Source of the DNA: Methylopila sp. M107 | Lineage (GTDB): Bacteria > Pseudomonadota > Alphaproteobacteria > Rhizobiales > Methylopilaceae | NCBI RefSeq assembly: GCF_000384475.1 | Contig: NZ_ARWB01000001.1 | Coordinates: 2,894,176 to 2,958,175, forward strand | Direction: 5' to 3' | Length of the DNA stretch: 64,000 nucleotides | Part shown: piece by piece, positions 35,862 through 50,986 of the stretch | Position numbering within the stretch: position 1 is the stretch's first letter | How the letters are laid out: each line of letters begins with the position of its first letter | Notes under the pieces: generated by a model | What the model was told of the DNA's origin: nothing | Seen by the model: the letters and a program-made list of their open reading frames with translations, nothing else | Databases searched by the model: none | Translations under genes and position numbers: made by a program

Positions 35862-35953
35862 GGCGTAAGCGTTTGACGTAGAGCGGCTTCGGCGTCGGCG
35901 GTTCCTTCTGAACCACCCCCACCCCTAACCCCTCCCCGCAAGGGGGAGGGGGA
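35811..35953. repeat. 41-bp perfect inverted repeat closing two convergent genes
   Basis: Arms 35811-35851 and 35913-35953 are exact reverse complements (41 of 41, C-rich: TCCCCCTCCCCCTTGCGGGG at the outer end) around a 61-bp centre. The left arm encodes the ligase C-terminus and the right arm encodes the last residues (PLPLAGRG) of the NTP transferase. The ligase stop is in the centre. It probably works as a bidirectional terminator. Confidence 0.93.
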
Positions 35954-36692
35954 CAGCCTCTTCCACCAACCGTCGCACCAGGATCAGATCCTCCGGCTTG
36001 TCGACGTCGATCGCGGCGCGGCCGAAGGGCATGATGACCGGGCCGGCCGTCAGCCCGCCGGACATGCGCTCGACTTCCGTGGCGACGCGCTCGGTGGTGA
36101 GGCGCCCGGTCGCGGCGGCGAGGATCGCGCGGGGGCCGAGCTTGCGGAGCAGCTTGAGCGGGCGCTTGCGCAGCGCCTCGAATTCCCGCCACAGCTCCAC
36201 GCCGCGAAGCGAATCCATGTCCCGCAGGTAGAACAGGTTGCAGCCGGAAAACCGGCCGTCGGCGAGCTTCAGGAACGTGCGCTTGGTGTCCGGGGTCTCG
36301 GCCATCACCACGTCGGACTTCGCGACCCCGACCGCGACCTGCCTGTCGGGCAGATTGTCGAGGAAGTAGCGCACCCATTCGGGCTCGAGCAGGGCGTGAT
36401 CGGCGGTCGTTATCAGCGCCGGCGCGCCGAGCGCCGTCACGCCCTCGACGACGCTTTCGCTGAGCGTCTTGGCGGATTTTATGACCTCGACGTCGAGATA
36501 AGCGAGCGCGGCCGGGCGGTTCGACGACACCAGGATGCGATCGATCCGGCCGCTCGCGCGCAGCGCCCCGATCACGCGCTCGATCATCGGTACGCCGCCG
36601 ATCGGGATCAGCGCCTTGTGCTCGACGCCGGCGAACTCCGCAAGCTTGTCGCCGCCCTTGCGCACGCCCGCGAGGATCAGGGCGGAGGTCAC
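35925..36692 (-). CDS. MobA-like NTP transferase in the sphingolipid operon
   Basis: This 255-residue nucleotidyltransferase has an N-terminal signature ALILAGVRKGGDKLAEFAGV (NTP-binding loop of the MobA/IspD-like fold), ALIPIGGVPMIERVIGAL, and metal-site TTADHALL. It would attach CMP or another nucleotide to a phosphorylated alcohol or sugar. The GTG start overlaps the stop of the ceramide synthase gene (GTGA), making it the last gene of a five-gene operon (HIT, LptF, LptG, bCerS, this). A role in making an activated head group for a sphingolipid is inferred from context. The C-terminal PLPLAGRG comes from a palindromic repeat. Confidence 0.8.
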   Translation of the reverse strand: MTSALILAGVRKGGDKLAEFAGVEHKALIPIGGVPMIERVIGALRASGRIDRILVSSNRPAALAYLDVEVIKSAKTLSESVVEGVTALGAPALITTADHALLEPEWVRYFLDNLPDRQVAVGVAKSDVVMAETPDTKRTFLKLADGRFSGCNLFYLRDMDSLRGVELWREFEALRKRPLKLLRKLGPRAILAAATGRLTTERVATEVERMSGGLTAGPVIMPFGRAAIDVDKPEDLILVRRLVEEAVPLPLAGRG

Positions 36693-37834
36693 GACGCGGC
36701 GGCCGAGGCCGGCGCGAGCTGCTTCGAATAGACCCGGTAGGTCTTGTAGGCCGAGCCGCCGCCGAGCGCCTCGCCGATGTGGCGCATCGGCTTGTTGGTC
36801 TCGAGCACCCAGGACATCTCGACGTGGCGCACGTTGCGGGCGCGGCCCTCCTCGCGGAACTTCTCGAAGATGTAGAGCGGCAGCATCTGGCCGAGAACGT
36901 TGCGGTGGAACTCCTTGCGCACGCCCATCAGCGGGATGCGGCCCGACCGGTAGGTGCGGCGCTTCAGCCGCCACACCAGCTTCGCCCAACCGAAGGGCAG
37001 CAGACTGCCGTTCAGGTCGCGGATCATCTCGTTGAGGTTCGGCAGCGACAGGCCGAAGGCGGCGGCCCTGCCGTTCACCTCGACGAACCACAGCAGCCGG
37101 TCGTCGAGCAGCGGCTTCATGGATTTCGCCATGTGCTCGAGCTCGTCCTGCCCGAACGGCAGAAAGCCCCAGTTTTCCGACCAGGCGTCGTTGAATATGT
37201 CGACGAGCGTCTTCAGCTCCTCGTCGTAGCGCGACCAGTCCATGTGGCGGATGACCACCTCCGGCGGCTTCGGCCGGGAGAGGAGGCGCTCGATCGACTT
37301 CGGGAACGGCACTTCCGTGTCGTGCAGATAGGCGTACAGATCCATCGCCTTGGCGTAACCCTCCGCCTCGACGCGGGGCCCAAGATAAGGCTTGTCATGC
37401 GGCATCAGCAGCATCGGCGGCGTGTCGAAGCCGTCGATCAGCAGGCCCGTCTCCTCGTTGATCGAGAGGTTGAACGGTCCCTGGACCTCCGTCTTGCCGC
37501 GCTGCTCAAGCCAGCGTTCCGCGGTGCGGAACAGCGCATGGACGACCGCCTGGTCGTCTTCCGCCGCGAGCAGGCCGAACTGCCCGATGGAGCCCAGCCT
37601 CGGGTCGGCCTGCGCGCTGATCCGGCCGACCGGCCGGCCGCCGCGCCGCGCGATCCACAGCCGGTGCTCGATCTTCTGGAGAAGCGGGTTGGCCTTCGGC
37701 GACAAGGCCTGCCGACGCTCGAGGTTGAGCGGCGCGACATAGGCCGGATCGGTCGCATGGATCGCGTTCGGCAGCGCGATGAACTCGCCAAGGTCGCCGG
37801 AGGACTGGACCGGCCGGATCTCGATTCCGCTCAC
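36689..37834 (-). CDS. Bacterial ceramide synthase candidate (bCerS/YghO-like GNAT)
   Basis: This 381-residue acyltransferase-fold protein belongs to the YghO-like family that includes the bacterial ceramide synthase of Caulobacter. Characteristic segments are DPAYVAPLNLERRQALSPKA, GPFNLSINEETGLLIDGFD, MPHDKPYLGPRVEAEGYAKA, FNDAWSENWGFLPFGQDE and ALGGGSAYKTYRVYSK. In that pathway it acylates the sphingoid base made by serine palmitoyltransferase, whose gene lies 6 kb away. The GTG at 37834 overlaps the lptG stop (GTGA), and its own stop overlaps the NTP transferase start. A function other than N-acylation of a long-chain base cannot be excluded by sequence alone. Confidence 0.78.
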   Translation of the reverse strand: MSGIEIRPVQSSGDLGEFIALPNAIHATDPAYVAPLNLERRQALSPKANPLLQKIEHRLWIARRGGRPVGRISAQADPRLGSIGQFGLLAAEDDQAVVHALFRTAERWLEQRGKTEVQGPFNLSINEETGLLIDGFDTPPMLLMPHDKPYLGPRVEAEGYAKAMDLYAYLHDTEVPFPKSIERLLSRPKPPEVVIRHMDWSRYDEELKTLVDIFNDAWSENWGFLPFGQDELEHMAKSMKPLLDDRLLWFVEVNGRAAAFGLSLPNLNEMIRDLNGSLLPFGWAKLVWRLKRRTYRSGRIPLMGVRKEFHRNVLGQMLPLYIFEKFREEGRARNVRHVEMSWVLETNKPMRHIGEALGGGSAYKTYRVYSKQLAPASAAAS

Positions 37835-38961
37835 GCTCCGGCCTCCGCGGGCAGGCCCACCGGGGGCCGCCCCCTGCGCGCAGGCTTCCAGCCGGCGTCG
37901 ATCCGCCAGATCCGGAACGCCCCGATGACCGCGAACGCCGCCACCCCCGACCACGCGCCGATGGTCGGCCGGACGACGCCGGTCAGTCCAAGCGTCGTCA
38001 ACAGCCCGTCGGTCAGCAGGAAGCCGAGGCCGGCGAGCAGCGCGAACGCCATGTGGCGGGTGGAGCGGACGTCGCGCCAGTTGAGGAGCGCAGCCGGCAT
38101 GGCCAGAAGGACCATGACGATCAGTCCGAGAGGCATGGCGTAGACCCGTTCGACCAGCGTTTCATAGAATGGCAGCGGCGCGTTGGGCGTCTGTTGACCG
38201 GCCAGGACCTTGCGGGCCGAGTCGAGCGAGATGCGGCTTTCCGGGCTCAAAGCTCCGAGCACGTCGTCGGGCGTCATCGTGGTCGTCCACACGCCGTCCG
38301 CGGGCGTCTTCTGGCTCAGCGTGTCGCGCGTCCACGAGATCTTCTCGGCGCCCGAGAGCGTCCACTTGCCGTCGCGCCAGCGCGCTTCCCGCGCAGTGGT
38401 GCGCGCGGTGACGATCTTGTCGGGCCCGCGGTCGTAGACGCGCACTTCTTTCAGGCGTCGGCCGCGGTCGCTGACCCGGTCGAAGGTGATGATGTCGTCG
38501 CCGACGCGCAGCCGCGTGATCTTTGTGTCGCGCATGCCTTCCTGCCTGTTCTCCAGCCGCTGCGTGATCTGGATCGCAAGCTTCGACTGGGCGCGCGGCG
38601 CCACGACGTCGATCAGCGTGGAATGCAGGATGACGAGCACGAGCGCGCCGGGCAGCATCATGAGATAGATGTTGAAGACCCCGCGCCCGGCCGAGCGCAT
38701 CGCGGAGATCTCGCTGTTGCGGGCGAACAGCGCGAGCGTGAGCAGCGCGCCGATCAGCGTGCCGAGCGGCATCGCATGGACCAGCAGGATCGGCATGCGC
38801 AGCCCGGCATAGAGCAGGATGCCGCTGACGCCCTCGCCGGCGTCGACGATGTCGCCGGCGTTGTCGACGAGGTCGAGCACTTCCGCGATGAAAGCGAGGA
38901 TCAGGGTCGCGACGATCGCGAGCTTGACGAGCATGACGCTGAGATAGCGGGCGAAGCGCAT
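37831..38961 (-). CDS. LptG-like permease of the LptF/LptG (YjgP/YjgQ) family
   Basis: This 376-residue inner-membrane protein has three N-terminal helices (LVKLAIVATLILAFIAEVLD, MPILLVHAMPLGTLIGALL, IYLMMLPGALVLVILHSTLI), a periplasmic beta-jellyroll (about 110-270) and three C-terminal helices. In canonical LPS export, LptF and LptG join LptB to move LPS onto the LptC-A-D bridge. Here the gene starts 2 bp after lptF and its stop overlaps the bCerS start, so it is built into the sphingolipid operon. It could be the housekeeping copy or a copy dedicated to sphingolipid export. Confidence 0.88.
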   Translation of the reverse strand: MRFARYLSVMLVKLAIVATLILAFIAEVLDLVDNAGDIVDAGEGVSGILLYAGLRMPILLVHAMPLGTLIGALLTLALFARNSEISAMRSAGRGVFNIYLMMLPGALVLVILHSTLIDVVAPRAQSKLAIQITQRLENRQEGMRDTKITRLRVGDDIITFDRVSDRGRRLKEVRVYDRGPDKIVTARTTAREARWRDGKWTLSGAEKISWTRDTLSQKTPADGVWTTTMTPDDVLGALSPESRISLDSARKVLAGQQTPNAPLPFYETLVERVYAMPLGLIVMVLLAMPAALLNWRDVRSTRHMAFALLAGLGFLLTDGLLTTLGLTGVVRPTIGAWSGVAAFAVIGAFRIWRIDAGWKPARRGRPPVGLPAEAGA

Positions 38962-38963
38962 GG

Positions 38964-40166
38964 TCAGCCTCCCGCCGCCTGAGGCTCGGGCGCGGTCCGC
39001 TTGCGCGTCGCGCGCACGAACGCGGCGCGGACGCCGTCGATCGCGCGCGAGATCAGCGTGTCGCCGGGCCGATCCGTGCTGGTCCGGAACAGCAGGACCG
39101 ACAGGCCGAGGAACAGCAGGAACGGCGCCCAACAGGTCACCACCGCGGGCGCGAGGCCCTTGTGGGCGAGCGTCTCCCCGATCTGCAGGGAGTTATGATA
39201 GACGACCATCGCGACGCCGGCCGCCACCATGTTGGCGATGCGCGCGTTCCGGCGCATCGTCATCGAGAGCGGCACGATCAGCAGCGGCAGGAAGGCGAGC
39301 GACAGCGAGCGCGCCAGGCGCCCGTGGAACTCCGCCGAGAGCTCGCGATAATAGCCCTTGGACACCGGCCCGCGCATCTCGCTCCAGAGCTCGAACATGT
39401 CGAGCTCGCGCTCGTTGCCGCCGCGCGGGCGGAACGGCGGCGCTTCAAGGTCGAACTTCTTGTCGAGCACGAACTCCTTGAAGCGGAGCGTGCTCGGCTC
39501 CGGACCGCCAAGATCGCGCACCGCCGCGCCGTTGAAGAGCTTCAGCTGGATCGCGGACTCGTCGGGCGTCAGTTCGAGCCGGCCGGTCGAGGCGGACGTC
39601 ACGACGTCCTGTCCGTCCTTGCGGTTCTGGATGAACACGCCCTTGAGGCCGCGGCCGGTCTTGTCGACTTCGTCGGCCGTGACCGTCAGGCCGTCCTTGA
39701 CGCTGATGAAGGTGGCGGCCGGCGCGTGCGCGCGCCAGGCGTAGGCCGTGCTCTGGTTGATGATCTCGCGGTACACGTAGCGGCAATAAGGCGAGGCGAA
39801 GCCGACCACGAGGATCGAGAGCAGGCTGAGCACGCAGCCGAGGATGATGAGCGGCCGCGTCATCGTGCGGACGGAGACGCCGGAGGCCAGCCCCGCCTCG
39901 AGCTCGGCCCCGAGGCTGAGCTTCGAGATCGCGCTGTAGACCCCGAGCGCGAAACCCGCGGGCATCGCGAAGCCGAGATAATGCGGCACCAGATTGCCCG
40001 CGAGCGCGAACGCGATGAACACCGGCGCGCCCGCGGTCGCCAGGATGTCGATCAGGCGCAGGATGCGCTCGAGCAGCAGCGCGGTGAGCACGATGCTGAG
40101 CGAGATCAGCATCGGCTTCAGCGTGAGCCCGAGAATGTAGCGGTCGAGAATGCGCAATTTCAGCAT
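38964..40166 (-). CDS. LptF-like permease of the LptF/LptG (YjgP/YjgQ) family
   Basis: This 400-residue protein has the same six-helix plus jellyroll plan as LptG: ILDRYILGLTLKPMLISLS at the start, FAMPAGFALGVYSAISKLS, a periplasmic domain (about 125-275), then SLAFLPLLIVPLSMTMRRNA and later helices. A segment GAELEAGLASGVSVRTMTRP matches the cytoplasmic coupling helix that contacts the LptB ATPase. No lptB, lptC, lptA or lptD gene is in the window. The ATG at 40166 shares a base with the stop of the HIT gene (TGATG). Confidence 0.88.
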   Translation of the reverse strand: MLKLRILDRYILGLTLKPMLISLSIVLTALLLERILRLIDILATAGAPVFIAFALAGNLVPHYLGFAMPAGFALGVYSAISKLSLGAELEAGLASGVSVRTMTRPLIILGCVLSLLSILVVGFASPYCRYVYREIINQSTAYAWRAHAPAATFISVKDGLTVTADEVDKTGRGLKGVFIQNRKDGQDVVTSASTGRLELTPDESAIQLKLFNGAAVRDLGGPEPSTLRFKEFVLDKKFDLEAPPFRPRGGNERELDMFELWSEMRGPVSKGYYRELSAEFHGRLARSLSLAFLPLLIVPLSMTMRRNARIANMVAAGVAMVVYHNSLQIGETLAHKGLAPAVVTCWAPFLLFLGLSVLLFRTSTDRPGDTLISRAIDGVRAAFVRATRKRTAPEPQAAGG

Positions 40167-40603
40167 CAGGCTTGCGACCACCGCGACTTGAGCGCCGAGA
40201 CCAGCGCATCGAGCGCCTCGCCCGCGAGGTCGACGCCGGAGGCGAGGTCCGGCGGACCCGGCCAGCCCTTGTCCGGATAGGCGACGCCGGCATGCTCGCG
40301 CGCGCCCTCATAGCGCGGGATCACGTGAAAGTGGACGTCCGGGTCGACCATCATCAGCATCAGATAGTTGATCCGCTCGTAGCCGACATGAGCGCGGAGG
40401 ACGCGCTCGATTGTCCGCACGGCCTCAGCGAGGTCGGCGAAGGCCTCGGGGGAGACGTCCGAAAACGCCGTGGCCTCGTCCCGGCAGACCAGCACCAGCG
40501 AGCCGAGCGTCGGCTGCTTCGGGCGCACGAGCACGGTCCAGCGGCCCGCTTCGGCGATCGCCGTATGGGGAAAGCCGAATTTCTGCATCGTCGCGTTCGT
40601 CAT
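40166..40603 (-). CDS. HIT family protein, first gene of the LptFG-bCerS operon
   Basis: This 145-residue protein has the histidine triad segment as DPDVHFHVIPRYEG, where the first His of the H-x-H-x-H motif is Asp while the two later His remain. HIT enzymes hydrolyse or transfer nucleotides from dinucleotides and nucleotidyl-phosphates. An N-terminal segment WTVLVRPKQPTLGSLVLVCR fits the nucleotide-binding fold. Its position at the head of an operon holding an NTP transferase suggests a role in nucleotide-activated head-group chemistry, by inference only. The ATG at 40603 is followed by MTNATMQKFGF; longer frames run into the divergent promoter region. Confidence 0.82.
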   Translation of the reverse strand: MTNATMQKFGFPHTAIAEAGRWTVLVRPKQPTLGSLVLVCRDEATAFSDVSPEAFADLAEAVRTIERVLRAHVGYERINYLMLMMVDPDVHFHVIPRYEGAREHAGVAYPDKGWPGPPDLASGVDLAGEALDALVSALKSRWSQA

Positions 40604-40749: not shown

Positions 40750-41883
40750 ATGACGGAACCGACGATATCTGCGGGTAGCCGCACGGCCATTCTGGTCGGC
40801 GCGTCCACTGTGACGATCTGGGGCATGAGCTCGGCGGAGCGCCTCAAGCGGCAGCTGGAGCGCGCGGGCGTGAAGGACGTGCGGGCGAACGCGGATGGTC
40901 TCGACCCGCAGGCCGATGCGCTGATTCTCAGGCTCGACTGGGCCTATGAGCAGCGTCTCATCGATGCGTTGGCGATTCGCCCCGGCGCATGCCTGGTCTC
41001 GGGCGCGGAGGCGGTCGCGGCCAACGTTCCCGGCGCGAGCGCGCAAGACGCCGCAGGCGCCGTTGCAAGGGGGGAGATGCCGCAAGGAACCGAGGAACTC
41101 GACTCGGAAGGCCTCGGCGGATCCTACAACCGAAAACTCCGCAAGCGCGAGATCGCCTATCTGATCCCGTTGTCGGAAGAGACCGTGGGCGACGTCGAGG
41201 AGCGCAGCTTCGCGGGCTCCTACAAGGGCGTGACCGATTTCGTCACGAAGTTCTGGTGGCCGCGGCCGGCGCGCGCCGTGACGAAGTGGTGCGCCGAACG
41301 GTCGATTTCGCCCAATCAGGTGACCTATCTCGGCCTGTTCCTGATGTTCCTCGCGCTGTTCCTGTTCTGGAACGGCAATTTTCTGCTCGGGCTGATCCCG
41401 GCGTGGATCATGACCTTCCTCGACACGGTCGACGGCAAGCTCGCGCGCGTCACCATGACGTCCTCGAAGTTTGGCGACATCCTCGACCACGGCATCGACC
41501 TGATCCACCCGCCGTTCTGGTGGATCGCCTGGATCTACGGGCTGCCGAAGGCGGGCTTTCCGGTCGACTACGCGGCCCTGATGGTCTGGACCATCATCGG
41601 CGGCTATGTCGTGCAGCGCATCCTCGAGGGCGCTTTCATCCGCCTGTGGGGCTTCCACATGCATGTCTGGCGGCCGTTCGACTCGATGTTCCGGCTCTAC
41701 ACCGCACGGCGCAACCCGAACCTCGTGATCCTGACGCTGTTCACGCTGGTCTGGCGGCCGGATCTCGGCATGGCGGCGGTGTGTATTTGGATCGTGCTGT
41801 CGCTCGTCGTCCACGCGTTCCAGATCGTGCAGGGCGCGGTGGCGAACCGGCGCGCGCCGCTCGTCTCCTGGCTCGACGCGTGA
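40750..41883 (+). CDS. CDP-alcohol phosphatidyltransferase family protein
   Basis: This 377-residue protein has a roughly 150-residue N-terminal soluble domain (opening ISAGSRTAILVGASTV) and a C-terminal membrane domain of about six helices with the full CDP-alcohol phosphotransferase motif: DG-KL-AR-x8-G-x3-D-x3-D in VDGKLARVTMTSSKFGDILD, then HGID. Such enzymes swap CMP from a CDP-lipid or CDP-alcohol for an alcohol. In this locus it is a candidate for attaching a phospho-alcohol head group to ceramide. The separate NTP transferase at 35.9 kb makes the pair resemble a split version of fused cytidylyltransferase-phosphatidyltransferase enzymes. It is followed 24 bp on by the lipid kinase gene. 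Confidence 0.88.
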   Translation: MTEPTISAGSRTAILVGASTVTIWGMSSAERLKRQLERAGVKDVRANADGLDPQADALILRLDWAYEQRLIDALAIRPGACLVSGAEAVAANVPGASAQDAAGAVARGEMPQGTEELDSEGLGGSYNRKLRKREIAYLIPLSEETVGDVEERSFAGSYKGVTDFVTKFWWPRPARAVTKWCAERSISPNQVTYLGLFLMFLALFLFWNGNFLLGLIPAWIMTFLDTVDGKLARVTMTSSKFGDILDHGIDLIHPPFWWIAWIYGLPKAGFPVDYAALMVWTIIGGYVVQRILEGAFIRLWGFHMHVWRPFDSMFRLYTARRNPNLVILTLFTLVWRPDLGMAAVCIWIVLSLVVHAFQIVQGAVANRRAPLVSWLDA

Positions 41884-41907: not shown

Positions 41908-42834
41908 TTGAGCAGGCTCGGGGTCGTCGCAAACGGGCGCAGCTGGAAGAACCGCGAAACTGCGCTCGCTAAGCCCGAGATCGGCGACGCGCTCCATGAG
42001 GCCGCTCGGTCGCCGGACGACTACCCGGCGCTGCTGAGGCGATTTGCGGAGGAAGGCGTGACGGTCGTCGCGGTCGACGGCGGCGACGGCACGCTGCGCG
42101 ACGTTATGAGCGTGCTGCCCTGGGCTTTTGGCGACGCGCTCCCCGCCGTCGCGATCGTGGCGAGCGGCAAGACCAATGTGGCGGCGGCGGATGTCGGGTG
42201 CGTCGCCCGCGCGGCGCTTCCGGCGCTCGCGGAGGCCGCCCGCGCCGGCGCGGCGCTGAAGCACGAGACGCGCCGCCCGATCCTGGTCGAGGTCGGAGAC
42301 GCCCGGATGCTCGGCTTCGTGTTCGGGCTCGGCGCGTTCGAGCGCGCCACGCGGCTGGTCAACGAACGGGTGCACACCAAGGGCGTGGCGCAGAAGCTCG
42401 GCGTCGCCATGGGTGTCGTGATGTCGGGGGCGGCGGCGCTCGGCAAGGACCGCGAACTCTGGCGGAGCGGCGTGCCGCTTGCGCTCTCGATCGACGGGGC
42501 CGAGCCCGAAATGCGCCACTCCTTCGCGCTGCTCGCGACCTCGCTGAACCGGCTGATGCTCGGGCTCTGGCCATTCTGGGGCAAGGGCGAGGGCGGGTTC
42601 AACGTGACGGAGGTCGCCGCCCCCCCACGCCGGCTGATCCGCACGCTCGCGACCGCGGGCATCGGCCGTCCGCCGTCGTGGGCGGCCGACTACGGCTACA
42701 AAAGCGCCAAGGCCGACCGGGTGTCGCTGACGCTGCGCGAGCCGTTCATCTTCGACGGCGACACGTTTGCGGCGGGGCCGGACGGCCGCGTCGAGCTGAC
42801 GGCGGGTCCCGCGATCAGGTTCGTGCGGCTGTGA
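41908..42834 (+). CDS. Lipid kinase (DAGK catalytic domain), ceramide kinase candidate
   Basis: This 308-residue protein of the diacylglycerol/sphingosine kinase fold has VANGRSWKNR at the start, the ATP-binding VAVDGGDGTLRDVMSVL (GGDGT motif), PAVAIVASGKTNVAAADVG, and a beta-rich C-terminal half. In Caulobacter a kinase of this fold phosphorylates ceramide for ceramide phosphoglycerate synthesis, and gene context here suggests the same. The start is a TTG at 41908 with a GGGAAGGGC ribosome-binding site. It lies 24 bp after the CDP-alcohol transferase gene and is surely co-transcribed with it. Confidence 0.85.
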   Translation: MSRLGVVANGRSWKNRETALAKPEIGDALHEAARSPDDYPALLRRFAEEGVTVVAVDGGDGTLRDVMSVLPWAFGDALPAVAIVASGKTNVAAADVGCVARAALPALAEAARAGAALKHETRRPILVEVGDARMLGFVFGLGAFERATRLVNERVHTKGVAQKLGVAMGVVMSGAAALGKDRELWRSGVPLALSIDGAEPEMRHSFALLATSLNRLMLGLWPFWGKGEGGFNVTEVAAPPRRLIRTLATAGIGRPPSWAADYGYKSAKADRVSLTLREPFIFDGDTFAAGPDGRVELTAGPAIRFVRL

Positions 42835-43012: not shown

Positions 43013-44080
43013 ATGACAGCCCCCGCCGCCTCCCTCGTCGCGTTCGTCGCCGAAGAGCTCGACCGCCCCATCCCGACCGCCGTCACGGCCTTCGCGGCGG
43101 AACTTGCGGCGCGCGGAGGGCGAGGCGTCATAGGCGTGCTGTTCTACGGCTCGGCGCTTCGGACAGGCGCCACGGACGGGCTGCTGGACTTCTACATCCT
43201 GCTCGACGAGCTCGAGGCCTGGGACCAGACGGCGTTCCAGCGCTTCGGCAACCGCCGCCTGCCGCCCAACGTGGAGTATGCCGAGACCACCGCCGCCGGC
43301 ATGACGCTGCGCGCCAAGCTCGCGGTGATGACGCTCGCGCAGTTCGTCGACCATGCGCGGGCGCTAAGCCTCGACACCACGATCTGGGCGCGCTTTGCGC
43401 AGCCGGCGGGGCTCGTCCATCGGCGCGACGCGTTTGCGGGGCGGCAGGTCGCCGAGGCGGTCGCGGGCGCCTGCCGGGGCGCCGCGTGGTGGGCCGCGCA
43501 TCTCGGCCCCGAACGCGGAACGCCGGCCGAATTCTGGCGGGCGCTGTTCTCGAAGACCTATGCGTCGGAACTGCGCGTCGAAGGAACGGGACGGCCGGGC
43601 TCGATCATCGACGCCGCCCCCGAACGCTACGACGCGCTGCTCAGGCTAGCCTGGGCCGCGGAGGGGATCGCGTTCGCGGAGGACGGCGAGGGCGCCTCGA
43701 CCGTCATGCCCGGCGAAGCCGGGTATCCACGACTTGGGCTCGCGCCGCCGTCCGAAGTCGTGGATACCCGGCCTTCGGCCGGGCATGACGGCGGTGGTCT
43801 CGGCGCCAGCCCTTCGTTCGTGAGGCCCCGCCTCACCGAAGTCGAGCGCGCCGACGCAAAAAGGGCTTGGGCGACGCGCGCGCGTCTCGCCAAGCCCTTG
43901 AATCTTGCGCGGCTCGCAAAGGCCGCCTTCACGTTTTCAGGCGGGGCCGACTACCTCGCCTGGAAGATCGAGCGGCACTCGGGCCACAAGATCGAGGTCA
44001 CGCCATTCCAGCGCCGACATCCGCTGCTGGCCGCAGGGCCGGTCTTGTGGTCGCTCTGGCGGAAAGGCGTTCTACGCTGA
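43013..44080 (+). CDS. Tam41-like nucleotidyltransferase (phosphatidate cytidylyltransferase-like)
   Basis: This 355-residue protein has a nucleotidyltransferase-fold motif GVLFYGSALRTG followed by DGLLDFYILLD, then LRAKLAVMTLAQFVDHARAL and FWRALFSKTYASELRVE, an order that recalls Tam41, the mitochondrial and bacterial CTP:phosphatidate cytidylyltransferase. It may make CDP-diacylglycerol or, given its place after a lipid kinase, CDP-ceramide. Residues about 231-259 are encoded by an in-frame palindromic repeat (43703-43789). The 3' end overlaps the convergent spt gene by 83 bp. The family match is my own reading and should be taken as likely, not certain. Confidence 0.65.
   Translation: MTAPAASLVAFVAEELDRPIPTAVTAFAAELAARGGRGVIGVLFYGSALRTGATDGLLDFYILLDELEAWDQTAFQRFGNRRLPPNVEYAETTAAGMTLRAKLAVMTLAQFVDHARALSLDTTIWARFAQPAGLVHRRDAFAGRQVAEAVAGACRGAAWWAAHLGPERGTPAEFWRALFSKTYASELRVEGTGRPGSIIDAAPERYDALLRLAWAAEGIAFAEDGEGASTVMPGEAGYPRLGLAPPSEVVDTRPSAGHDGGGLGASPSFVRPRLTEVERADAKRAWATRARLAKPLNLARLAKAAFTFSGGADYLAWKIERHSGHKIEVTPFQRRHPLLAAGPVLWSLWRKGVLR
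43703..43789. repeat. Family A palindromic repeat inside the Tam41-like gene, in frame
   Basis: GTCATGCCCGGCGAAGCCGGG at the left and CCCGGCCTTCGGCCGGGCATGAC at the right, with inner TATCCACGACTT and AAGTCGTGGATA. Its 87 bp equal 29 codons exactly, so reading frame is kept. The encoded stretch (MPGEAGYPRLGLAPPSEV and DTRPSAGHDG) is typical of translated palindromes. Confidence 0.93.
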
Positions 44081-45302
44081 CGTGGCGCGGCGGGAACGGA
44101 TGCACGTTCTCCGGCAGCAGGCCGAATTCACGGCCGACGCGGGTCATCAGCTCGATCGCGTAATCGATCTGCTCGAACGAATGAGCGGCGCTGACCGAGG
44201 AACGCAGATAGGCGCTGTGGCTCGGCGTCGCGGGCGGCAGCGCGAGGTTGAGATACATGCCCTCGTCGACCAGCCGCTTCCAGAACGCGGTCGCAACGTC
44301 GACACGGTCGACGATCACGGCGACGATCGGGTTCGCCTCCGGGCCGACCTGGAAGCCGGCGCTCTTCAGGCCGTTGTAGAAGCGGCGCGCGTTTGCGGTG
44401 AGCTTCTCGCGGCGCTGCGGCTCGGCCCGCATGGTCTCGAGCGCGGCGGTCGTCGAGGCGATGATCGCGGGCGGCAGCGAGGCTGTGAACATGTAGGGGC
44501 GGGCCGCGATCCGCAGGATCTCGAAGCCCTCCATGTTGGAGACGCAGTATCCGCCGACGGAAGCGAGGCTCTTCGAGAAGGTGCCGACCACGAAGTCGAC
44601 GTCGTCCTCGACGCCCTCGCGCTCCGCGAGGCCGCGGCCGTTCGCGCCGAGCACGCCCATGGAATGCGCCTCGTCGACCATGAGGTAAGCGCCGTATTCG
44701 CGCTTGACGTCGACGAACTCCTTCAGCGGGGCCGTGTCGCCCAGCATCGAATAGATGCCCTCGACGACGATCAGCTTGTCGCCGGGCACGTCCTTGAGAC
44801 GGTTCAGGCGCTTGGCGAGGTCGTCCGGATTGTTGTGGCGGAAGCGCACCACCGGCGCATGGCCGAGGCGCGAGGCGTCGTAGATCGAGGCGTGGCTGTC
44901 GGCGTCGATCACGAGATGGTCGTCCTTGCCGACCAGCGTCGAGATCATGGCGAGGTTCGCCTGATAGCCGGTCGAGAACACCATGCAGTGCTTGCGGCCA
45001 TAGAAGTCCGCCAGCGCGCGCTCGAGTTCGGCATGGCCGTCATAGGAGCCGTTCGCGATGCGCGAGCCGGTGGTGCCGGTGCCGTGCTGGCGGATGGCCT
45101 CGATCGAGCGCTCGACCGAATGCGGGTCGAACGTCAGGCCGAGATAGTTGTTGGTGCCGAACAGCAGCGTGCGCTTGCCTTTCAGCACGCCCTCGACGGA
45201 CGAGACGATGTCGTCGAACTTGACCGAAAACGGGTCCGCGCCGCTGGAGCGGAGCTGGTCGTAGCGATCGGCGAGGGGCTTAAACTTGGACAGCAGGGAC
45301 AT
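43998..45302 (-). CDS. spt: Serine palmitoyltransferase (Spt), alpha-oxoamine synthase family
   Basis: Spt condenses serine with a palmitoyl thioester to 3-ketosphinganine, the first step of sphingolipid synthesis. The 434-residue PLP enzyme has NNYLGL, the PLP-stacking His138 (DADSHASIYD), Asp210/His213 (MVDEAHSMGVLG) and the Schiff-base Lys244 (GTFSKSLASVGGY). The family also includes 8-amino-7-oxononanoate, 2-amino-3-ketobutyrate and aminolevulinate synthases; the adjacent dedicated ACP and ceramide-locus genes make Spt by far the best call. The ATG overlaps the acp stop (TAATG). The C-terminus, with a 40-residue Arg/Ala-rich tail, overlaps the convergent Tam41-like gene. Confidence 0.9.
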   Translation of the reverse strand: MSLLSKFKPLADRYDQLRSSGADPFSVKFDDIVSSVEGVLKGKRTLLFGTNNYLGLTFDPHSVERSIEAIRQHGTGTTGSRIANGSYDGHAELERALADFYGRKHCMVFSTGYQANLAMISTLVGKDDHLVIDADSHASIYDASRLGHAPVVRFRHNNPDDLAKRLNRLKDVPGDKLIVVEGIYSMLGDTAPLKEFVDVKREYGAYLMVDEAHSMGVLGANGRGLAEREGVEDDVDFVVGTFSKSLASVGGYCVSNMEGFEILRIAARPYMFTASLPPAIIASTTAALETMRAEPQRREKLTANARRFYNGLKSAGFQVGPEANPIVAVIVDRVDVATAFWKRLVDEGMYLNLALPPATPSHSAYLRSSVSAAHSFEQIDYAIELMTRVGREFGLLPENVHPFPPRHVSVERLSARATTRPALRPAADVGAGMA

Positions 45303-45556
45303 TACGCAGCGCTCCGCAGCGTCTCGAGCGTGTTCAGGAGGTCCTGAACCGTCACGACGCTGGCCATGTCATTCAGCGGAATCGAGATGTCGAACTTGTC
45401 TTCCAGCGCCATGGTGAAATTCATCACGGCGATCGAGTCGAGACCAAGATCATTGACGATATTCATCTCAGGTTTCAGCTCGACTTTTCTGTTCAGGACG
45501 CTCTCTAGGACGTCCGAGACCTCGGTAAGCAACGCTGATTGATTTTCACTCATCAT
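45302..45556 (-). CDS. Acyl carrier protein dedicated to sphingolipid synthesis (AcpR-like)
   Basis: This 84-residue ACP has the phosphopantetheine Ser41 in NDLGLDSIAVMNF (DSI instead of the usual DSL) and an acidic four-helix pattern. In Caulobacter an ACP in this position carries the palmitoyl group for Spt. The ATG at 45556 follows CCAAGGC; a GTG at 45577 would add seven residues. Its stop overlaps the spt start (TAATG), so the two proteins are made in a coupled way. Confidence 0.9.
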   Translation of the reverse strand: MMSENQSALLTEVSDVLESVLNRKVELKPEMNIVNDLGLDSIAVMNFTMALEDKFDISIPLNDMASVVTVQDLLNTLETLRSAA

Positions 45557-45997
45557 TTTGCCTTGGCGATACGCCACTGCAAACTTTAGTCAGGGACCGG
45601 AACCTAGGTAGCCGCCTCCGGTCTGTAAAGTTCACGCAGACGTTCTGGAAACACTAATCAATGCAGCATGTTACAGGCGCGTTTCCTTACTGAATCACGA
45701 GTCGAACGGGCCTCGTAAGAGGGGGCCAGAGCATTGTTAAAAAGGTGTTGCGCAAATGCCCTGAGGCGATTTCAGAGCCCGCGGCCGGCGCCCGCGCGCG
45801 CCGAAATCGCTGCGGCGCCGCGTTTCGCGCCGTGCGCTCAAAAATTCGCCATCGTTTTCAAGCTCTTCGCGGCGGACCTCGCAGCCGATGAGGCGCGAGC
45901 GAGCCGGCGGACGCCGCGCAGGGCCCCCGGATCACAACCGCAATTGCTTCAGCTTTGAAATAATTAGGCGCCGAATGTTACGAACTTCGCGCCGCTC
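45557..45997. promoter_or_regulatory. Leader region of acp-spt, with two GANTC sites
   Basis: This 441-bp region lies between the acyl-AMP ligase gene and acp, both on the minus strand. It is AT-richer near 45590-45760 and contains two CcrM-type sites 2 bp apart, GAATC (45692-45696) and GAGTC (45699-45703). It is expected to carry the acp-spt promoter. A 74-codon plus-strand open frame at 45734-45958 lacks any family resemblance and is not called. Confidence 0.5.
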
Positions 45998-47707
45998 TCA
46001 CGCCTCGTCGGGCAGCGACAGGTAGAGCGCGCGGGCGCGCGACCGGCTGAGCTTGCCGGAAGACGTCATCGGCAGCGCATGCGCGCCGACGAGGCGCACC
46101 AGGACGGGCGTGCCGAACTGAAGGCGCAGCAGCTTGCCGACCTCGTCGATGAGCGTCGCGCGCACGGCCGGGTCGCTCGACCGGGACTGGACCAGCGCGA
46201 CGACCTCCTCGCCTTCGTCGCGGTCGACGGAGAACACCGCGACGTCGCCGGAGCGTACGCCGGGAACGCCCGCCTCGACGGCCCATTCCAGGTCCTGCGG
46301 CCAGACGTTGCGGCCGTTGACGAGGATAAGGTCCTTGGCGCGGCCGGTGATGACGAGCTCGCCGTCGGCGAAATAGCCGAGGTCGCCGGTGTCGAGCCAG
46401 CCGTCCGCCGACAGCGTTTCCGCGGTCGCCTGCGGCTCGCGGAAATAATCGCGCATCAGGCTCGGGCCCTTGGCGTAGATCTTTCCGACGCGCCGCTCCG
46501 GCAGGGCCGCGCCGTCGGGCCCGCGCGCCTCCAAAGCGTGGCCGGGAAGCGCGGGGCCGCACAGCACGAATTCGCGGGTGCGCGCTGCGCCGTCCGCCGC
46601 GATCTCTGCGACGTGGTCGTTCTCGAGCCTGTCGAGATCGATGGTTTCAGTCCTCAGCCCCGGCCCGAGCGGCGCAAAGGACAGCGCCAGCGTCGCCTCC
46701 GCCATGCCGTAGCTCGCGACGTAACGGTCCATGCCGAAACCGTGGGGGCCAAAACGCTCGGCGAAGCGGCGCAGCACGTGCGAGCGGATCATGTCGCCGC
46801 CGATGCCGGCGCAGCGCCAGGACGAGACGTCGAGGTCGCCTAGGTCGAGCGTCGCTGCGCGCTGGGCGGCGAGTTCGAAGCCGAAGCTCGGCGAATAGGA
46901 GATCGTGGCCTTTGCGCGCGCGATCATCTGCAGCCAGAGCAGCGGACGGCGGGCGAAATCGCGGGTCGCGAGGTAGTCGACGGTCAGCCCCGCCACGATC
47001 GGCGACAGCATGAAGCCGACCAGTCCCATGTCGTGGTAGAACGGCAGCCACGAGACGCAGCGGTCGCCCGGCCGCGTCTGAAGCCCGTGCCGGCTGATCG
47101 CGGTCGCGTTCGCCATCAGCGAGCGGTGCGTGACCGAAATGCCCTTCGGGAACCGCGTCGAGCCGGACGAGAACTGCAGGTAGGCGAGGGCGTCGGGGTC
47201 GGGCGCAGGGAGAAGCGCGGTCGAGGGCGCGACGTCGGCGAGGTCAGCGATCGTGCCGACGAGGTTGAGCGGCAGGCCTTTCGCGGCCTCCTTCAGCCAT
47301 TCGGCCATCATGGCGGGCGCGAAGGCGGCGGAGGCGTCCGAAACCTCGATCATCTTGGCGAGATGCGCGATGTAGCCCTCGCGGCCGCCGAAGGCCATAG
47401 GCAGCGGCATCGGGGCGGGCACGACGCCCGCATAGGCGCAGGCGAAGAACAGCCGGACGAAGTCGCCCTCGGTGTCGGCGATCAGCGCGACGTGCTCGCC
47501 CGGCTTCACCCCTGCGCCGAGCAGCTTCGCGGCGAGCGCGCGGGCCTGTTCTACGAGCGCCGTGTAGCTGAGCGCTTCCGTCAGCACGCCCTTGCCGGAA
47601 TGGAAGTTGAACCCTTCCGCCCCGCGCGCGGCCGCTTCGAGCGCGTCGAGGATCGTGGCGGCGCCGACCTTCGCCGGCCGGGTGAGATCGATGGCGTCGG
47701 TCGTCAT
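45998..47707 (-). CDS. Fatty acyl-AMP ligase / acyl-ACP synthetase (AasR-like)
   Basis: This 569-residue adenylating enzyme has YLQFSSGSTRFPKGISVTHR as phosphate loop, YGMAEATLALSF, DGWLDTGDLGYFADGELVIT and GRAKDLILVNGRNVWPQDLE, with the C-terminal TSSGKLSRSRARALY. The FSSGSTRFPKG form and the YGMAEATLAL segment are typical of fatty acyl-AMP ligases, which load acyl groups onto carrier proteins rather than CoA. It most likely charges the dedicated ACP for Spt, as the acyl-ACP synthetase does in the Caulobacter set. The ATG at 47707 lies 19 bp after the ABC exporter gene stop. Confidence 0.86.
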   Translation of the reverse strand: MTTDAIDLTRPAKVGAATILDALEAAARGAEGFNFHSGKGVLTEALSYTALVEQARALAAKLLGAGVKPGEHVALIADTEGDFVRLFFACAYAGVVPAPMPLPMAFGGREGYIAHLAKMIEVSDASAAFAPAMMAEWLKEAAKGLPLNLVGTIADLADVAPSTALLPAPDPDALAYLQFSSGSTRFPKGISVTHRSLMANATAISRHGLQTRPGDRCVSWLPFYHDMGLVGFMLSPIVAGLTVDYLATRDFARRPLLWLQMIARAKATISYSPSFGFELAAQRAATLDLGDLDVSSWRCAGIGGDMIRSHVLRRFAERFGPHGFGMDRYVASYGMAEATLALSFAPLGPGLRTETIDLDRLENDHVAEIAADGAARTREFVLCGPALPGHALEARGPDGAALPERRVGKIYAKGPSLMRDYFREPQATAETLSADGWLDTGDLGYFADGELVITGRAKDLILVNGRNVWPQDLEWAVEAGVPGVRSGDVAVFSVDRDEGEEVVALVQSRSSDPAVRATLIDEVGKLLRLQFGTPVLVRLVGAHALPMTSSGKLSRSRARALYLSLPDEA

Positions 47708-47726: not shown

Positions 47727-49538
47727 TCAGGACGCGGCTTCGGCGGTCTGGGCCAAAGGCGCGGCGCCTTGGGCGGCGGTCGACCACTCCTCGGGGCGCC
47801 TGTCAACCGTCTCGGTCTTGCCGTCGCGCAGGCGCACCACCGTGTCGGAGGCCTTGGCCCAGGCCGGCTGGTGCGAGATCGCGAGCACCGTGAGGCCGGT
47901 GCGGCGCGTCAGCTCGATGACGTTCGCGACGATGTTCGCCTCGGTCGTCGGGTCGAGCGCCGTGGTCGCCTCGTCAAGGATCAGGATTTTTGGCCGGTGC
48001 AGCAAGGCGCGGGCGATCGAGATGCGCTGGCGCTGGCCGCCGGAGAGCCGTGCGCCGCGCTCGCCCACCACCGTCTCGACGCCCTCGGGCAGGCTCGCCA
48101 CGAATTCCGCCGCGCCCGACTGGTCGAGCGCGCGCTGGACGTCCTCGTCGGTGAAATCGGGATGGCCGAGCGTGACGTTGGACTTCAGCGTATCGTGGAA
48201 CAACGTCAGTTCCTGCGGCACGTAGCCGGTGGACTGGCGCCAGGCGATCAGGTCGATCGCCTTCAGCGAGACGCCGTCGATCAGGATCTCGCCGCCGGAC
48301 GGCTCGTGCAGTCCGAGCAGCAGGTCGACGGTCGTGGTCTTGCCGGCGCCCGACGCTCCGGTGATCGTCGTCACCTTGCCCTGAGGCGCGACGAAGGAGG
48401 CGCCGCGGATGATCTCGGCGTCGCCGAACCCGAAGGTCACGTCGCGGAACTCGATCGCCTTCTCGAACTTCGGCGGCAGCCCGCCATGGGACTGCTCCTT
48501 CATGGCGCGGGCGATGTCGATCGTGTCCGCGATGGCGTTGAAGCCGGCCTGCTGGATGCGGACGTTCTGCAGCGCCTGCTGGGCCTTGCCGATGGTCGAG
48601 ACGGTGCGGGCGAGCAGCAGCGCCATCACCACCACCTGGCCGGCCGGCAGCTCCCACACGCCGACCGTGAGGTAGACGCCGAGCGCGAGGAACCCCGCGA
48701 GGATCGGCTCCTGCATCGCCTTGTTGGTGTCGCGCGCCAGCGACTGCTTGCGCTGGGCCTTGCGGATCTTCTCTGCGTCGCGCTCGAACAGCTCCTGGAA
48801 ACGCGCCTGACGGCCCATCGCCTTCATGGGCTTGATGCCGACCAGAAGGTCGGTGAGCCCCGCCACCATGGAGCTGACGCGCTTCTTCTGCAGCCGCGCG
48901 TTCTTCTTCGCGATCGCCATGAAGCGGTTGAGCGTCAGCACCATCAGCAGCCCCGCGCCGAGCGAGACCAGTGCGAGCTGCCAGGAGAAGATCGTGACGA
49001 TCACCACATAGGTGACGACCTGGATCAGTTCGGCGGCGAACTTCGCGGTGGCGTTGTAGGCCTCGCCGGCCTGCATGGCCTCGACCGAGAGCGCGGCCGA
49101 GAACCGGCCGACGGGTTGGCGCACGTAGTAGGACCAGCGGGCGGCGAGCAGCGAGTCGATCAGGTCGAGCCGCATCTTGGTCGCGACGTCGGCGCCGGCG
49201 CGGCCGACGCGGTTCATCGCAAGAATGGTCAGCACCGCCTTGAGCGACATGCCGATGACCAGGATCACCACGAACAGCCCGAGCGTGGGCTCGAGCCCGA
49301 CCGAATGCAGCGCCTCGGCGACCTTGCCGCTGGTGCCTTTGGTCGGCCCGCTGTCCGGCCCGATGGCCGCGACCAGCGGCAAAAGGCTCGCGACGCCGAG
49401 CCCCTCGGCCGCGCCGGCGAGCGCGAGCAGCAACAGCGTCACCACGCTGCGGCTGAGCGGGATCACCCGCGCGATGCGCAGCAAGGTCGACTGGCGGTGC
49501 TTGGGATCGGTCGTCGGAAGGGTCCGGGGATCGGACAT
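47727..49538 (-). CDS. ABC exporter (permease-ATPase) upstream of the acyl-AMP ligase
   Basis: This 603-residue half-transporter has six transmembrane helices (about 25-330) and an ATPase domain: Walker A GASGAGKTTT, LSGGQRQ signature, Walker B ILILDEATTALD, H-loop ISHQPAW. The membrane half resembles MsbA/HlyB-type lipid or peptide exporters; no peptidase domain is present. Being 19 bp upstream of the acyl-AMP ligase gene, it shares an operon with the sphingolipid genes and may flip a ceramide or glycosphingolipid across the inner membrane. The ATG at 49538 (MSDPRTLPTTDPK) is preferred over a start at 49613. Confidence 0.86.
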   Translation of the reverse strand: MSDPRTLPTTDPKHRQSTLLRIARVIPLSRSVVTLLLLALAGAAEGLGVASLLPLVAAIGPDSGPTKGTSGKVAEALHSVGLEPTLGLFVVILVIGMSLKAVLTILAMNRVGRAGADVATKMRLDLIDSLLAARWSYYVRQPVGRFSAALSVEAMQAGEAYNATAKFAAELIQVVTYVVIVTIFSWQLALVSLGAGLLMVLTLNRFMAIAKKNARLQKKRVSSMVAGLTDLLVGIKPMKAMGRQARFQELFERDAEKIRKAQRKQSLARDTNKAMQEPILAGFLALGVYLTVGVWELPAGQVVVMALLLARTVSTIGKAQQALQNVRIQQAGFNAIADTIDIARAMKEQSHGGLPPKFEKAIEFRDVTFGFGDAEIIRGASFVAPQGKVTTITGASGAGKTTTVDLLLGLHEPSGGEILIDGVSLKAIDLIAWRQSTGYVPQELTLFHDTLKSNVTLGHPDFTDEDVQRALDQSGAAEFVASLPEGVETVVGERGARLSGGQRQRISIARALLHRPKILILDEATTALDPTTEANIVANVIELTRRTGLTVLAISHQPAWAKASDTVVRLRDGKTETVDRRPEEWSTAAQGAAPLAQTAEAAS

Positions 49539-49680: not shown

Positions 49681-49814
49681 TCTCATCTCTCCCTGGCGGG
49701 GAGAGGTCGACCCGAAGGGGCGGGTGAGGGGGTCCAGCACTCTCCGAAGAGCCCTGATCCCCCTCACCCGCTTGGCTCCGCCTCGCGACCTCTCCCCGCC
49801 GGGGAGAGGTGAAG
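49681..49814. repeat. Palindromic repeat, CCTCTCCCC type
   Basis: Arms TCTCTCCCTGGCGGGGAGAGGTCG (49686-49709) and CGACCTCTCCCCGCCGGGGAGAGGTGAAG (49786-49814) are near-perfect complements around a CCGAAGGGGCGGGTGAGGGG centre. It is the same family as the in-gene copy at 16479-16612. It lies between the divergent ABC exporter and ELM1-family genes. Confidence 0.88.
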
Positions 49815-49864
49815 ATCCGTGCTCTTGCTTCAAGGGACTGACCTGCCCGTTGACGGGCGCCGGC

Positions 49865-50986
49865 ATGCGCTTCATGCACGCGTGCATGGACGCATTCCCG
49901 GCCGATCCCGAAACCGCCTCCGGCCGCACGGTCTGGCTGCTGACCGACGACCGCCCCGGCAACCGCACGCAGGTCGTCGGCGTCGCGCGCGCGCTCGGCT
50001 GGCCGGCGCAGGAGAAGCGGCTCGCGTTCAACGAGCGGCAATCGAGCGCGACGCCGCGGCTCGGCGCGTCGCTCGAGACCCTCGACGACGCCTCGCGGAA
50101 GACGATCGCGCCGCCATGGCCGGACCTCGTGCTCGCGGCCGGCCGGCGCGCCGTGCCGGTCGCGCGCCATGTGAAGGCCGCGAGCGGCGGGCGGGCGCGC
50201 ATCGTGCTGATCGGCCGCAGGACGCCTGCCGAGGGCGCGGACCTCGTGATCCGCTGCAGCTATTTCCGGCAGGCGCCGAGCCCGAACCTGCTGGAGCTGA
50301 CCCTGCCGCCGACCCAGGTCGACGCCGCCATGCTCCGGCGCGTGAAGGCGGAGCAGCCGGACCCTCTGGCCGGGCTGAAGCGGCCCGTCTGCGTGTTTCT
50401 GGTCGGCGGCGAGACCGGCCGCCACCGGTTCGAACCGGACTTCGTCGAGCGGATGGCGCGCGACGTCGCGACTGCCGCCCACACGGCCGGCGCGTCGCTC
50501 GCGATCGTCACGAGCCGCCGCACCGGCGCGGGGGGCGTCGCGGCGCTGAAACGCGGGGCTTCAGAGGCGACGCTGCACGAATGGCGCGCGGACGCGGTCT
50601 CGAACCCGTTCCTCGCGCTGCTCGCCAACGCCGACATCCTCGCCGTGACGGGCGAAAGCGAATCGATGCTGGCGGAAGCGGCCGCCAGCGGAAAACCGCT
50701 CACCATTTATCCGCTGGTCCCGCGGCCGCTGTCGCCGCGCCTGCGCATCCGGGCGGCGATCGCGTCCGCCGCGACCGGGAACGGACCGCTCGCGCCGCTC
50801 TTCGCCAGGCTGATGAACGCGGGCTGGGTCTCGCCGCGCCGGGACCTGTCGGAGCTGCATGTCCTGATCGAACGGCGCGGATGGGGCCGCGTGTTCGACG
50901 GCGCGCTCAACCGCGTCCCGCCGGCGCCCTTCGAGGAAGGAGCAGTCGCGGCGCGGCGGATCGAGGCGTTGTTCGGCTCCGGCTAG
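49865..50986 (+). CDS. ELM1-family putative glycosyltransferase-like protein
   Basis: This 373-residue protein matches the mitochondrial fission ELM1 family (DUF1022), whose bacterial members are putative GT-B-like glycosyltransferases. Segments include WLLTDDRPGNRTQVVGVARAL, VLAAGRRAVPVARHV, LVGGETGRHRFEP, IVTSRRTGAGGVAALK and LAVTGESESMLAEAAASGKP. The role is not established. Its place beside the ABC exporter and sphingolipid genes would fit a sugar transferase acting on a lipid, by inference. Three nearby in-frame ATGs (49865, 49874, 49886) are possible starts. Its TAG stop overlaps the TAG of the next, convergent gene. Confidence 0.82.
   Translation: MRFMHACMDAFPADPETASGRTVWLLTDDRPGNRTQVVGVARALGWPAQEKRLAFNERQSSATPRLGASLETLDDASRKTIAPPWPDLVLAAGRRAVPVARHVKAASGGRARIVLIGRRTPAEGADLVIRCSYFRQAPSPNLLELTLPPTQVDAAMLRRVKAEQPDPLAGLKRPVCVFLVGGETGRHRFEPDFVERMARDVATAAHTAGASLAIVTSRRTGAGGVAALKRGASEATLHEWRADAVSNPFLALLANADILAVTGESESMLAEAAASGKPLTIYPLVPRPLSPRLRIRAAIASAATGNGPLAPLFARLMNAGWVSPRRDLSELHVLIERRGWGRVFDGALNRVPPAPFEEGAVAARRIEALFGSG

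Follow-up and report, generated by a model that had tools for sequence, protein, structure and literature searches.

In Caulobacter crescentus, the published sphingolipid locus (CC_1168 to CC_1152) contains LptF2, LptG2, the CofC-like CC_1153, and more genes, and the CC_1159 gene is required for the ceramide phosphoglycerate (CPG)-type lipid CPG2 (PMC11324152). Caulobacter without fur can dispense with lipid A, provided that the cells contain anionic sphingolipids (title of Zik et al. in PMC10964400; PMC12275187), and sphingolipid formers without lipopolysaccharide (LPS) are known in Sphingomonas (PMC11324152). Here we compare with these systems a Caulobacter-type sphingolipid locus of Methylopila sp. 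M107, located at positions 35925 to 50986 of a 64,000-nucleotide stretch of its genome (G000:C1:2894176-2958175; the whole stretch is hereafter called the window). The genome consists of one contig of 4.45 Mb and is rated 100% complete. The significant fact, as judged from gene content, is the loss of LPS genes in a subclade of the genus, and it lies outside the window. Because key LPS genes have been lost in M107 and its nearest relatives and the gene set for a charged sphingolipid is present, the sphingolipid has probably taken the place of LPS in these organisms.

The genus (Methylopila/Hansschlegelia/Chenggangzhangella) was represented by 13 genomes (G000 to G012, G000 being that of M107), which fall into eight LPS-minus genomes (G000, G001, G002, G003, G006, G008, G009, and G011) and five LPS-plus genomes (G004, G005, G007, G010, and G012). 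LpxC, LpxB, and LptD were each searched for in 29 genomes. Canonical LpxC was absent from all eight LPS-minus genomes, and LpxB was undetectable in exactly the same eight. Canonical LpxC scored 323 to 327 bits in the LPS-plus genomes and 308 to 343 bits in the Spt-less family members G013 to G017 (i.e., those lacking serine palmitoyltransferase), and LpxB was likewise found in all ten of these genomes (in two pieces in G012). LptD is present in all 13 genus genomes. A search of 16 genomes for LptC (PF06835) recovered it in 5 of the 13, exactly the LPS-plus set; this short, divergent protein was missed in G126 as well, and we do not rely on it. The loss of LPS synthesis genes that would accompany a Sphingomonas-like membrane was found in 8 of the 13 genomes, M107 included, with LpxK and WaaA lying outside the test.

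The gene order differs between the two sets at two loci. The bamA-lpx locus, located by way of RseP in 14 genomes, reads rseP-bamA-lpxD remnant-fabZ in the eight LPS-minus genomes, with no lpxA, lpxI, or lpxB thereafter; gltA comes next in seven of them but does not appear in the stretch taken from G008. Both G005 and the outgroup G013 have the order rseP-bamA-lpxD-fabZ-lpxA-lpxI-lpxB-gltA, and G004, G007, G010, and G012 carry the same lpx block with gltA farther away or outside the stretch. The second locus reads pepA-lptD-pdxA-ksgA in the eight LPS-minus genomes (pdxA being a partial match in G001) and pepA-lptF-lptG-lptD-pdxA-ksgA in G004, G005, G007, G010, G012, G013, and G014. When 11 genomes were searched throughout for LptF/LptG, G000 and G002 showed two matches (i.e., the copies of the sphingolipid cluster only), G004, G007, G010, and G234 showed four, the Spt-less G013 to G016 showed two, and G126 showed none. 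Eight assemblies, including the complete chromosome record of Chenggangzhangella methanolivorans (G008, L051), share these gaps, with identical LPS genes gone from identical positions.

What persists of lpxD in the LPS-minus genomes is, on the evidence of its sequence, a decaying remnant. At L293:10693-11598, between bamA and fabZ, the IAHN motif, which we take to be the site of the LpxD catalytic histidine, has become IAPD. All seven aligned copies lack the C-terminal part and have a changed motif, although G002 and G011 still have a histidine there (G008 was left out of the alignment due to frame breaks). Within the LPS-minus group, lpxD has diverged 7.7 times as much as within the LPS-plus group, versus 1.4 to 2.0 times for seven neighboring genes that include those of LptD and BamA. 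A seven-gene tree with G013 as the outgroup placed the eight LPS-minus genomes on one branch (support, 100/100). One loss event is favored over two, in part because the eight genomes lack identical genes at identical positions. Outgroup asymmetry, with more change on the LPS-minus side, was 0.316 for LptD and 0.202 for BamA (pepA, pdxA, ksgA, and gltA, 0.017 to 0.103); in this informal comparison, the apparent rate shift of LptD and BamA fits a changed outer membrane.

The sphingolipid cluster itself occurs on both sides of the divide. Its part from CpgC to the nucleoside triphosphate (NTP) transferase is found in all 13 genus genomes (LptF and LptG of G008 are partial matches only), and the part from the ABC exporter to Spt is found in 12, the locus of G012 running into a contig edge. 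A G012 without Spt was considered and rejected, as contig C27 starts inside cpgC and probably does not extend to the Spt side. The LPS-plus species have the cluster just as the LPS-minus species do, so it is not a consequence of LPS loss.

The original prediction described the M107 locus as a complete sphingolipid gene set with a Spt carrying Lys244, a coupled acyl carrier protein (ACP), a fatty acyl-AMP ligase, an acyltransferase resembling bacterial ceramide synthase (bCerS), a lipid kinase, a CDP-alcohol transferase, and exporters. All the genes that it listed were found as open reading frames (by Pfam, NCBIfam, and tblastn against named loci), and their orders and strands agree with the three transcription units that it proposed. 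The units are HIT-lptF-lptG-cerS-NTP transferase (minus strand), cpgA-kinase-cpgC (plus strand), and ABC-aasR-acp-spt (minus strand). To obtain the named loci, an alignment of 15 Spts was run against named genomes; at least 589 relatives were confirmed, and the best 80 loci were kept. The Spt gene (positions 43998 to 45302, minus strand) scored 677.9 bits against NF047599 (SerpalmtaseBetaP; cutoff, 500), and K244 is invariant among the 15 aligned Spts. A grouping of this alpha-oxoamine synthase with KBL or ALAS, named in advance as the outcome that would overturn the assignment, was rejected: its scores lie under the cutoffs of the KBL, BioF, and ALAS models, and in the PDB the solved proteobacterial SPTs (E values of 1e-125 to 7e-130) rank ahead of the best KBL (5e-68). 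The adjacent gene encodes the ACP AcpR (45302 to 45553, minus strand; PF00550, 47.7 bits), a protein matched in all 80 named loci; the serine of its DSIA motif is residue 41, as predicted, if numbering starts at the first Met codon of an adjacent pair. AasR, the fatty acyl-AMP ligase/acyl-ACP synthetase (45998 to 47707, minus strand), scored 813.8 bits against NF006624 (cutoff, 600). The bCerS gene (CerS, a CC_1154-like GNAT protein; 36689 to 37834, minus strand) has a PF00583 match of 25.6 bits and 50 to 52% identity to its homologs in Caulobacter loci L068 and L077.

The headgroup genes lie mainly on the plus strand. CpgA (40750 to 41883; PF01066) is a CDP-alcohol phosphotransferase with an N-terminal cytidylyltransferase-like domain, and its signature residues D224, D227, G228, A231, R232, G241, D245, and D249 are invariant in 31 sequences. 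The CpgB-type ceramide kinase (41908 to 42834; PF00781) has the GGDG motif and 38 to 40% identity to its counterparts in L068 and L077. The next gene (43013 to 44080), left unnamed in the original prediction, encodes a 355-residue nucleotidyltransferase of the Tam41 fold that we identify as CpgC (CC_1161-like). On the minus strand, the NTP transferase (35925 to 36692; CC_1153-like, i.e., CofC/MobA-like; PF12804, 52.9 bits; weak match to the CofC model TIGR03552) occupies the same position as in Caulobacter L077. CpgD, published as a phosphoglycerate cytidylyltransferase (PMC12275187), seemed to be missing when the locus alone was considered. That view was rejected, as an orthologue of 338 bits lies at G000:C1:2386317-2387057, approximately 0.55 Mb from the locus, and CpgD is present in all 13 genus genomes (310 to 346 bits) with the R, K, and D of its motif kept, as judged by eye. 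Of the genes of the CPG/CPG2 pathway, CpgA, CpgB, CpgC, and the CC_1153-like gene thus adjoin the ceramide genes, and CpgD is elsewhere in the genome. The exporters are LptG2 (37831 to 38961; PF03739, 193 bits) and LptF2 (38964 to 40166; PF03739, 199 bits), the only two LptF/LptG matches in the genome, both on the minus strand, and an ABC exporter (47727 to 49538, minus strand; PF00664 and PF00005), which is a candidate inner-membrane flippase. The last is MsbA-like but earns no MsbA call (244.9 bits against the equivalog model; cutoff, 602), and it is present in all 12 genus loci that extend to that side.

One gene of the set is missing, and in this respect the locus is not complete as the original prediction had it. 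In most named loci, a gene of approximately 310 to 330 residues for the ceramide reductase CerR lies between aasR and acp; the aasR-acp gap is 418 to 602 bp in four Methylopilaceae loci, whereas in most of the others it measures approximately 1.1 to 1.3 kb and usually contains CerR. CerR was not found in these four loci, and in M107 its position is a gap of approximately 420 bp (45578 to 45997). We searched 27 genomes with an 11-sequence CerR profile, as well as 16 genomes reached through the named loci. The best matches in the 13 genus genomes (121 to 134 bits) resembled those in five Spt-less family members (121 to 148 bits), and nine Spt-bearing genomes outside the genus had CerR at 300 to 385 bits. 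We rejected the 121- to 134-bit matches as CerR because Spt-less relatives show the same ones. Seven of the 16 genomes reached through named loci have CerR (322 to 475 bits), and the nine without it are the four Methylopilaceae (i.e., G002, G004, G008, and G011) and five Spt-bearing acetic acid bacteria (G357 to G361; loci L113, L115, L119, L124, and L126; Acetobacter, Komagataeibacter, and Gluconacetobacter), in which no CerR match exceeded 145 bits genome-wide. Hence aasR, acpR, spt, and cerS of the rhodobacterial ceramide pathway are present in M107, and cerR is not. By these profile matches, at least two lineages with Spt either lost CerR or never acquired it; in the acetic acid bacteria, the second of them, a different reductase must act or the ketone is left in place. 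No substitute for CerR was found when the starts of the flanking genes were read by eye, short-chain dehydrogenase/reductase (SDR) families not having been searched genome-wide. An SDR-like gene does lie beside a thiolase gene approximately 6 kb beyond the cluster in G012; this pair presumably belongs to polyhydroxybutyrate synthesis.

From gene content, gene order, and family membership, together with the absence of CerR, the loss of LPS genes, and the retention of LptD, we infer the following enzymatic steps, export route, and replacement. AasR would load AcpR with a fatty acid, Spt would condense the AcpR-bound acyl chain with serine, and bCerS would attach the second chain; a reductase other than CerR would remove the ketone, or the ketone would remain. 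CpgB would then phosphorylate the ceramide, CpgC is predicted to activate the phosphoceramide with CTP through its Tam41 fold, and CpgA would extend the headgroup using CDP-glycerate from the distant CpgD, giving a predicted anionic phosphoglycerate ceramide of the CPG/CPG2 type. The ABC exporter may flip this lipid, and LptF2G2 may deliver it to the Lpt bridge; its placement in the outer leaflet would fall to LptD. Since LPS synthesis and the LPS-type LptF/LptG have been lost in the LPS-minus subclade, we propose that LptF2G2 and LptD would there serve the sphingolipid only.

We consider it likely that anionic phosphoceramides from the locus are exported by LptF2G2 and LptD and that, within the genus, they have taken over from LPS. 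For the fuller picture, in which an LPS-free, sphingolipid-coated subclade stands beside LPS-bearing sisters and LPS has given way to CerR-independent anionic phosphoceramides that a dedicated LptF2G2 feeds to the old LptD, the balance tips only slightly in favor. An ordinary Caulobacter-like organism with both LPS and sphingolipids, as the original prediction implied, would account for the Caulobacter-like order of the locus and for the LPS-plus part of the genus. It is nevertheless very improbable for M107, whose single, 100%-complete contig lacks lpxA, lpxI, lpxB, lptF, and lptG at their conserved places as well as any LpxB and canonical LpxC; this reading is contradicted at the gene level, barring an assembly error at two loci that is common to seven other genomes. 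LPS might instead still be made by divergent or unrecognized enzymes such as the LpxC paralogue at L249:8997-9995 (G000:C1:1748996-1749994), which scores 231 bits against Pfam and falls under the curated LpxC cutoffs (340 of 423 and 176 of 187 bits). Its metal-ligand pattern appears intact, and the lpxD remnant persists between bamA and fabZ. The paralogue is the only LpxC-type gene in six LPS-minus genomes (G000, G001, G002, G008, G009, and G011; 181 to 238 bits) but also stands as a second copy beside canonical LpxC in all five LPS-plus genomes, so it probably has another job; moreover, G003 and G006 have no LpxC match of any kind, LpxB is undetectable throughout the subclade, and the C-terminal part of lpxD is gone from every aligned copy. 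We regard continued LPS synthesis of this kind as quite unlikely. A membrane that has lost LPS and is covered mainly by phospholipids, hopanoids, or another glycolipid, with the sphingolipid a minor component carried by LptD and LptF2G2 as a sideline, gains some credit from the occurrence of the cluster in the five LPS-plus species, where it is not tied to LPS loss. However, LptD would then have been retained in all eight LPS-minus genomes for a minor lipid, and survival of Caulobacter without LPS has been linked to anionic sphingolipids (PMC12275187); we judge this alternative unlikely.

As to the end product, the lipids might keep their 3-keto group (i.e., oxidized-ceramide phosphoglycerates) with no replacement reductase. 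The absence of CerR from all 13 genus genomes agrees with this, and a cerR deletion in Caulobacter accumulates oxidized ceramide (PMC11087976). On the other side, the five Spt-bearing acetic acid bacteria also lack CerR. The ceramide of Acetobacter malorum, a species outside the searched genomes, is reportedly of the reduced dihydroceramide form, in which case another enzyme can do the work of CerR. This species is listed among ceramide producers (PMC10626005). A retained ketone is a tentative suggestion that we regard as possible but doubtful. Several points count against the replacement of LPS by phosphoceramides as we propose it. It is predicted from gene content; the cluster is equally present in the five LPS-plus species; the M107 genome retains the divergent LpxC paralogue; and the absence of CerR leaves the ceramide step partly unexplained. 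The genome-wide LptF/LptG search covered two of the eight LPS-minus genomes, the other six being covered at the pepA-lptD locus only, and the LPS gene searches left out LpxK, WaaA, LptA, LptB, and MsbA. The completeness rating of G008 is only 88%, and its contamination is put at 5%. Support for the eight genomes as one group is only 53% in a five-gene tree without lptD and bamA and 50/27 in a tree of RseP alone, so two separate losses are less likely but conceivable. In the open-licence literature, no lipid data on these organisms were found under Methylopila sphingolipids or Hansschlegelia lipopolysaccharide (judged by title), and the C. methanolivorans genome paper nowhere mentions LPS or sphingolipid.

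Outside the genus, we tested five of the eight other Spt-bearing genomes of the order with E values of <1e-95; they were chosen for having Spt and are not a random draw. LpxC was absent from four (G021, G039, G052, and G054) and kept in G023, LpxB was absent from all five, and CerR was present in all five. At the class level, G097 and G126 lack LpxC and LpxB, and G126, a one-contig alphaproteobacterium with Spt and CerR, showed no match to LpxC, LpxB, LptF/LptG, or LptD at the thresholds used. Both LpxC and LpxB are kept in Pararhizobium mangrovi (L054), Caulobacter sp. AP07 (L077), Acetobacter sacchari (L113), and G234. By this gene content, sphingolipid genes alone do not imply LPS loss, and the apparent loss recurs among sphingolipid makers. 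It may have occurred several times in the order Hyphomicrobiales, G021, G039, G052, and G054 belonging to other families.

The remaining genes of the locus are a HIT-domain protein (40166 to 40603, minus strand; PF01230, 27.5 bits; 62 to 68% identity to L068 and L077), which by inference occupies the CC_1157 position, and a variable member of the ELM1 family (49886 to 50986, plus strand; PF06258, 178 bits), whose gene is divergent from the ABC-aasR-acp-spt unit. ELM1 was rejected as a core gene, as a copy with at least 55% identity adjoins the cluster in only 7 of the 13 genus genomes, M107 included. Elsewhere in the window, two more AMP-binding ligases (6697 to 8376, plus strand; 14140 to 15948, minus strand) lie apart from the sphingolipid cluster. 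An 884-residue protein (9564 to 12218, minus strand) is a fusion of a flippase domain of the MATE/MurJ type with a GNAT domain, and its C-terminal part scored 169.8 bits against a BspF-type GNAT model (cutoff, 775). An Lhr-type helicase, a metallo-beta-lactamase-fold protein, and an ATP-dependent DNA ligase are adjacent at 29346 to 35861, a group that we take to resemble a DNA repair cluster.

The reason that so many Gram-negative bacteria cannot live without lipid A has been called an unanswered question (PMC10964400), and laboratory loss of lipid A or LPS is known in a few species (PMC12275187). Here, species with and without LPS genes share one genus, with cultured representatives on both sides (Methylopila jiangsuensis, with; Hansschlegelia beijingensis and C. 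methanolivorans, without), so that both the genes allowing the loss and a possible switch in the cargo of LptD come within reach of experiment. If our reading is correct, the genus is a natural experiment on the essentiality of lipid A. The order of the ceramide steps is disputed, and the lack of CerR throughout the genus is relevant to that dispute. A cytoplasmic location is predicted for the kinase, and experiments in Caulobacter place CerR in the periplasm (PMC10331486; PMC11087976), locations that are hard to reconcile. With CerR missing genus-wide, the reductase of these organisms cannot be a periplasmic CerR, and a CerR-free genus with CPG genes offers a direct way into this conflict of compartments.

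Compared with known systems, the M107 locus is of the Caulobacter type, as predicted. It shares Spt, AcpR, AasR, CerS, CpgA, CpgB, CpgC, the CC_1153-like protein, HIT, LptF2, and LptG2 with the C. crescentus locus CC_1168 to CC_1152 (PMC11324152), and CpgD is also in the M107 genome. The core genes have the same order and orientation in Caulobacter sp. AP07 (L077) and, up to the locus end that cuts its NTP transferase, in Caulobacter radicis (L068), with 32 to 68% identity by tblastn. A full set was thought to be unusual outside Caulobacterales and Sphingomonadales; instead, such loci are widespread. At least 20 of the 80 named loci have all 11 core genes within the fetched stretch, a lower bound because many loci end at contig ends, and they include Niveispirillum, Azospirillum, Caulobacter, Phenylobacterium, Solimonas, and four Methylopilaceae. 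Of the genes held to be extra, most are usual, since LptF2, LptG2, and the CofC-like CC_1153 belong to the published Caulobacter locus, and HIT has the same place in both Caulobacter loci; the ABC exporter and ELM1 vary. The M107 locus differs from that of C. crescentus in lacking CerR, LptC2, and a CC_1158-like phosphoesterase (looked for at the locus only), in the distance of CpgD (approximately 0.55 Mb), and in the ABC exporter upstream of AasR. Moreover, LPS genes are gone from the M107 subclade, whereas LpxC and LpxB are both found in Caulobacter sp. AP07.

CpgC has the Tam41 fold of the mitochondrial-type CDP-diacylglycerol synthase but only 12% identity and no Pfam match, and its predicted substrate is ceramide phosphate. 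The structure model of CpgA (pLDDT, 92.6) fits the AF2299-type CDP-alcohol phosphotransferase 4o6n over nearly the whole length (E value, 3e-10; TM score, 0.68), yet with 18% identity. As in Sphingomonas, sphingolipid genes have been retained and LPS synthesis genes are gone (PMC11324152). M107, however, belongs to another order (Hyphomicrobiales), and the loss took place inside one genus whose sister species still have LPS genes. Sphingomonas has glycosphingolipids, whereas the M107 locus carries headgroup genes of the phosphoglycerate type.

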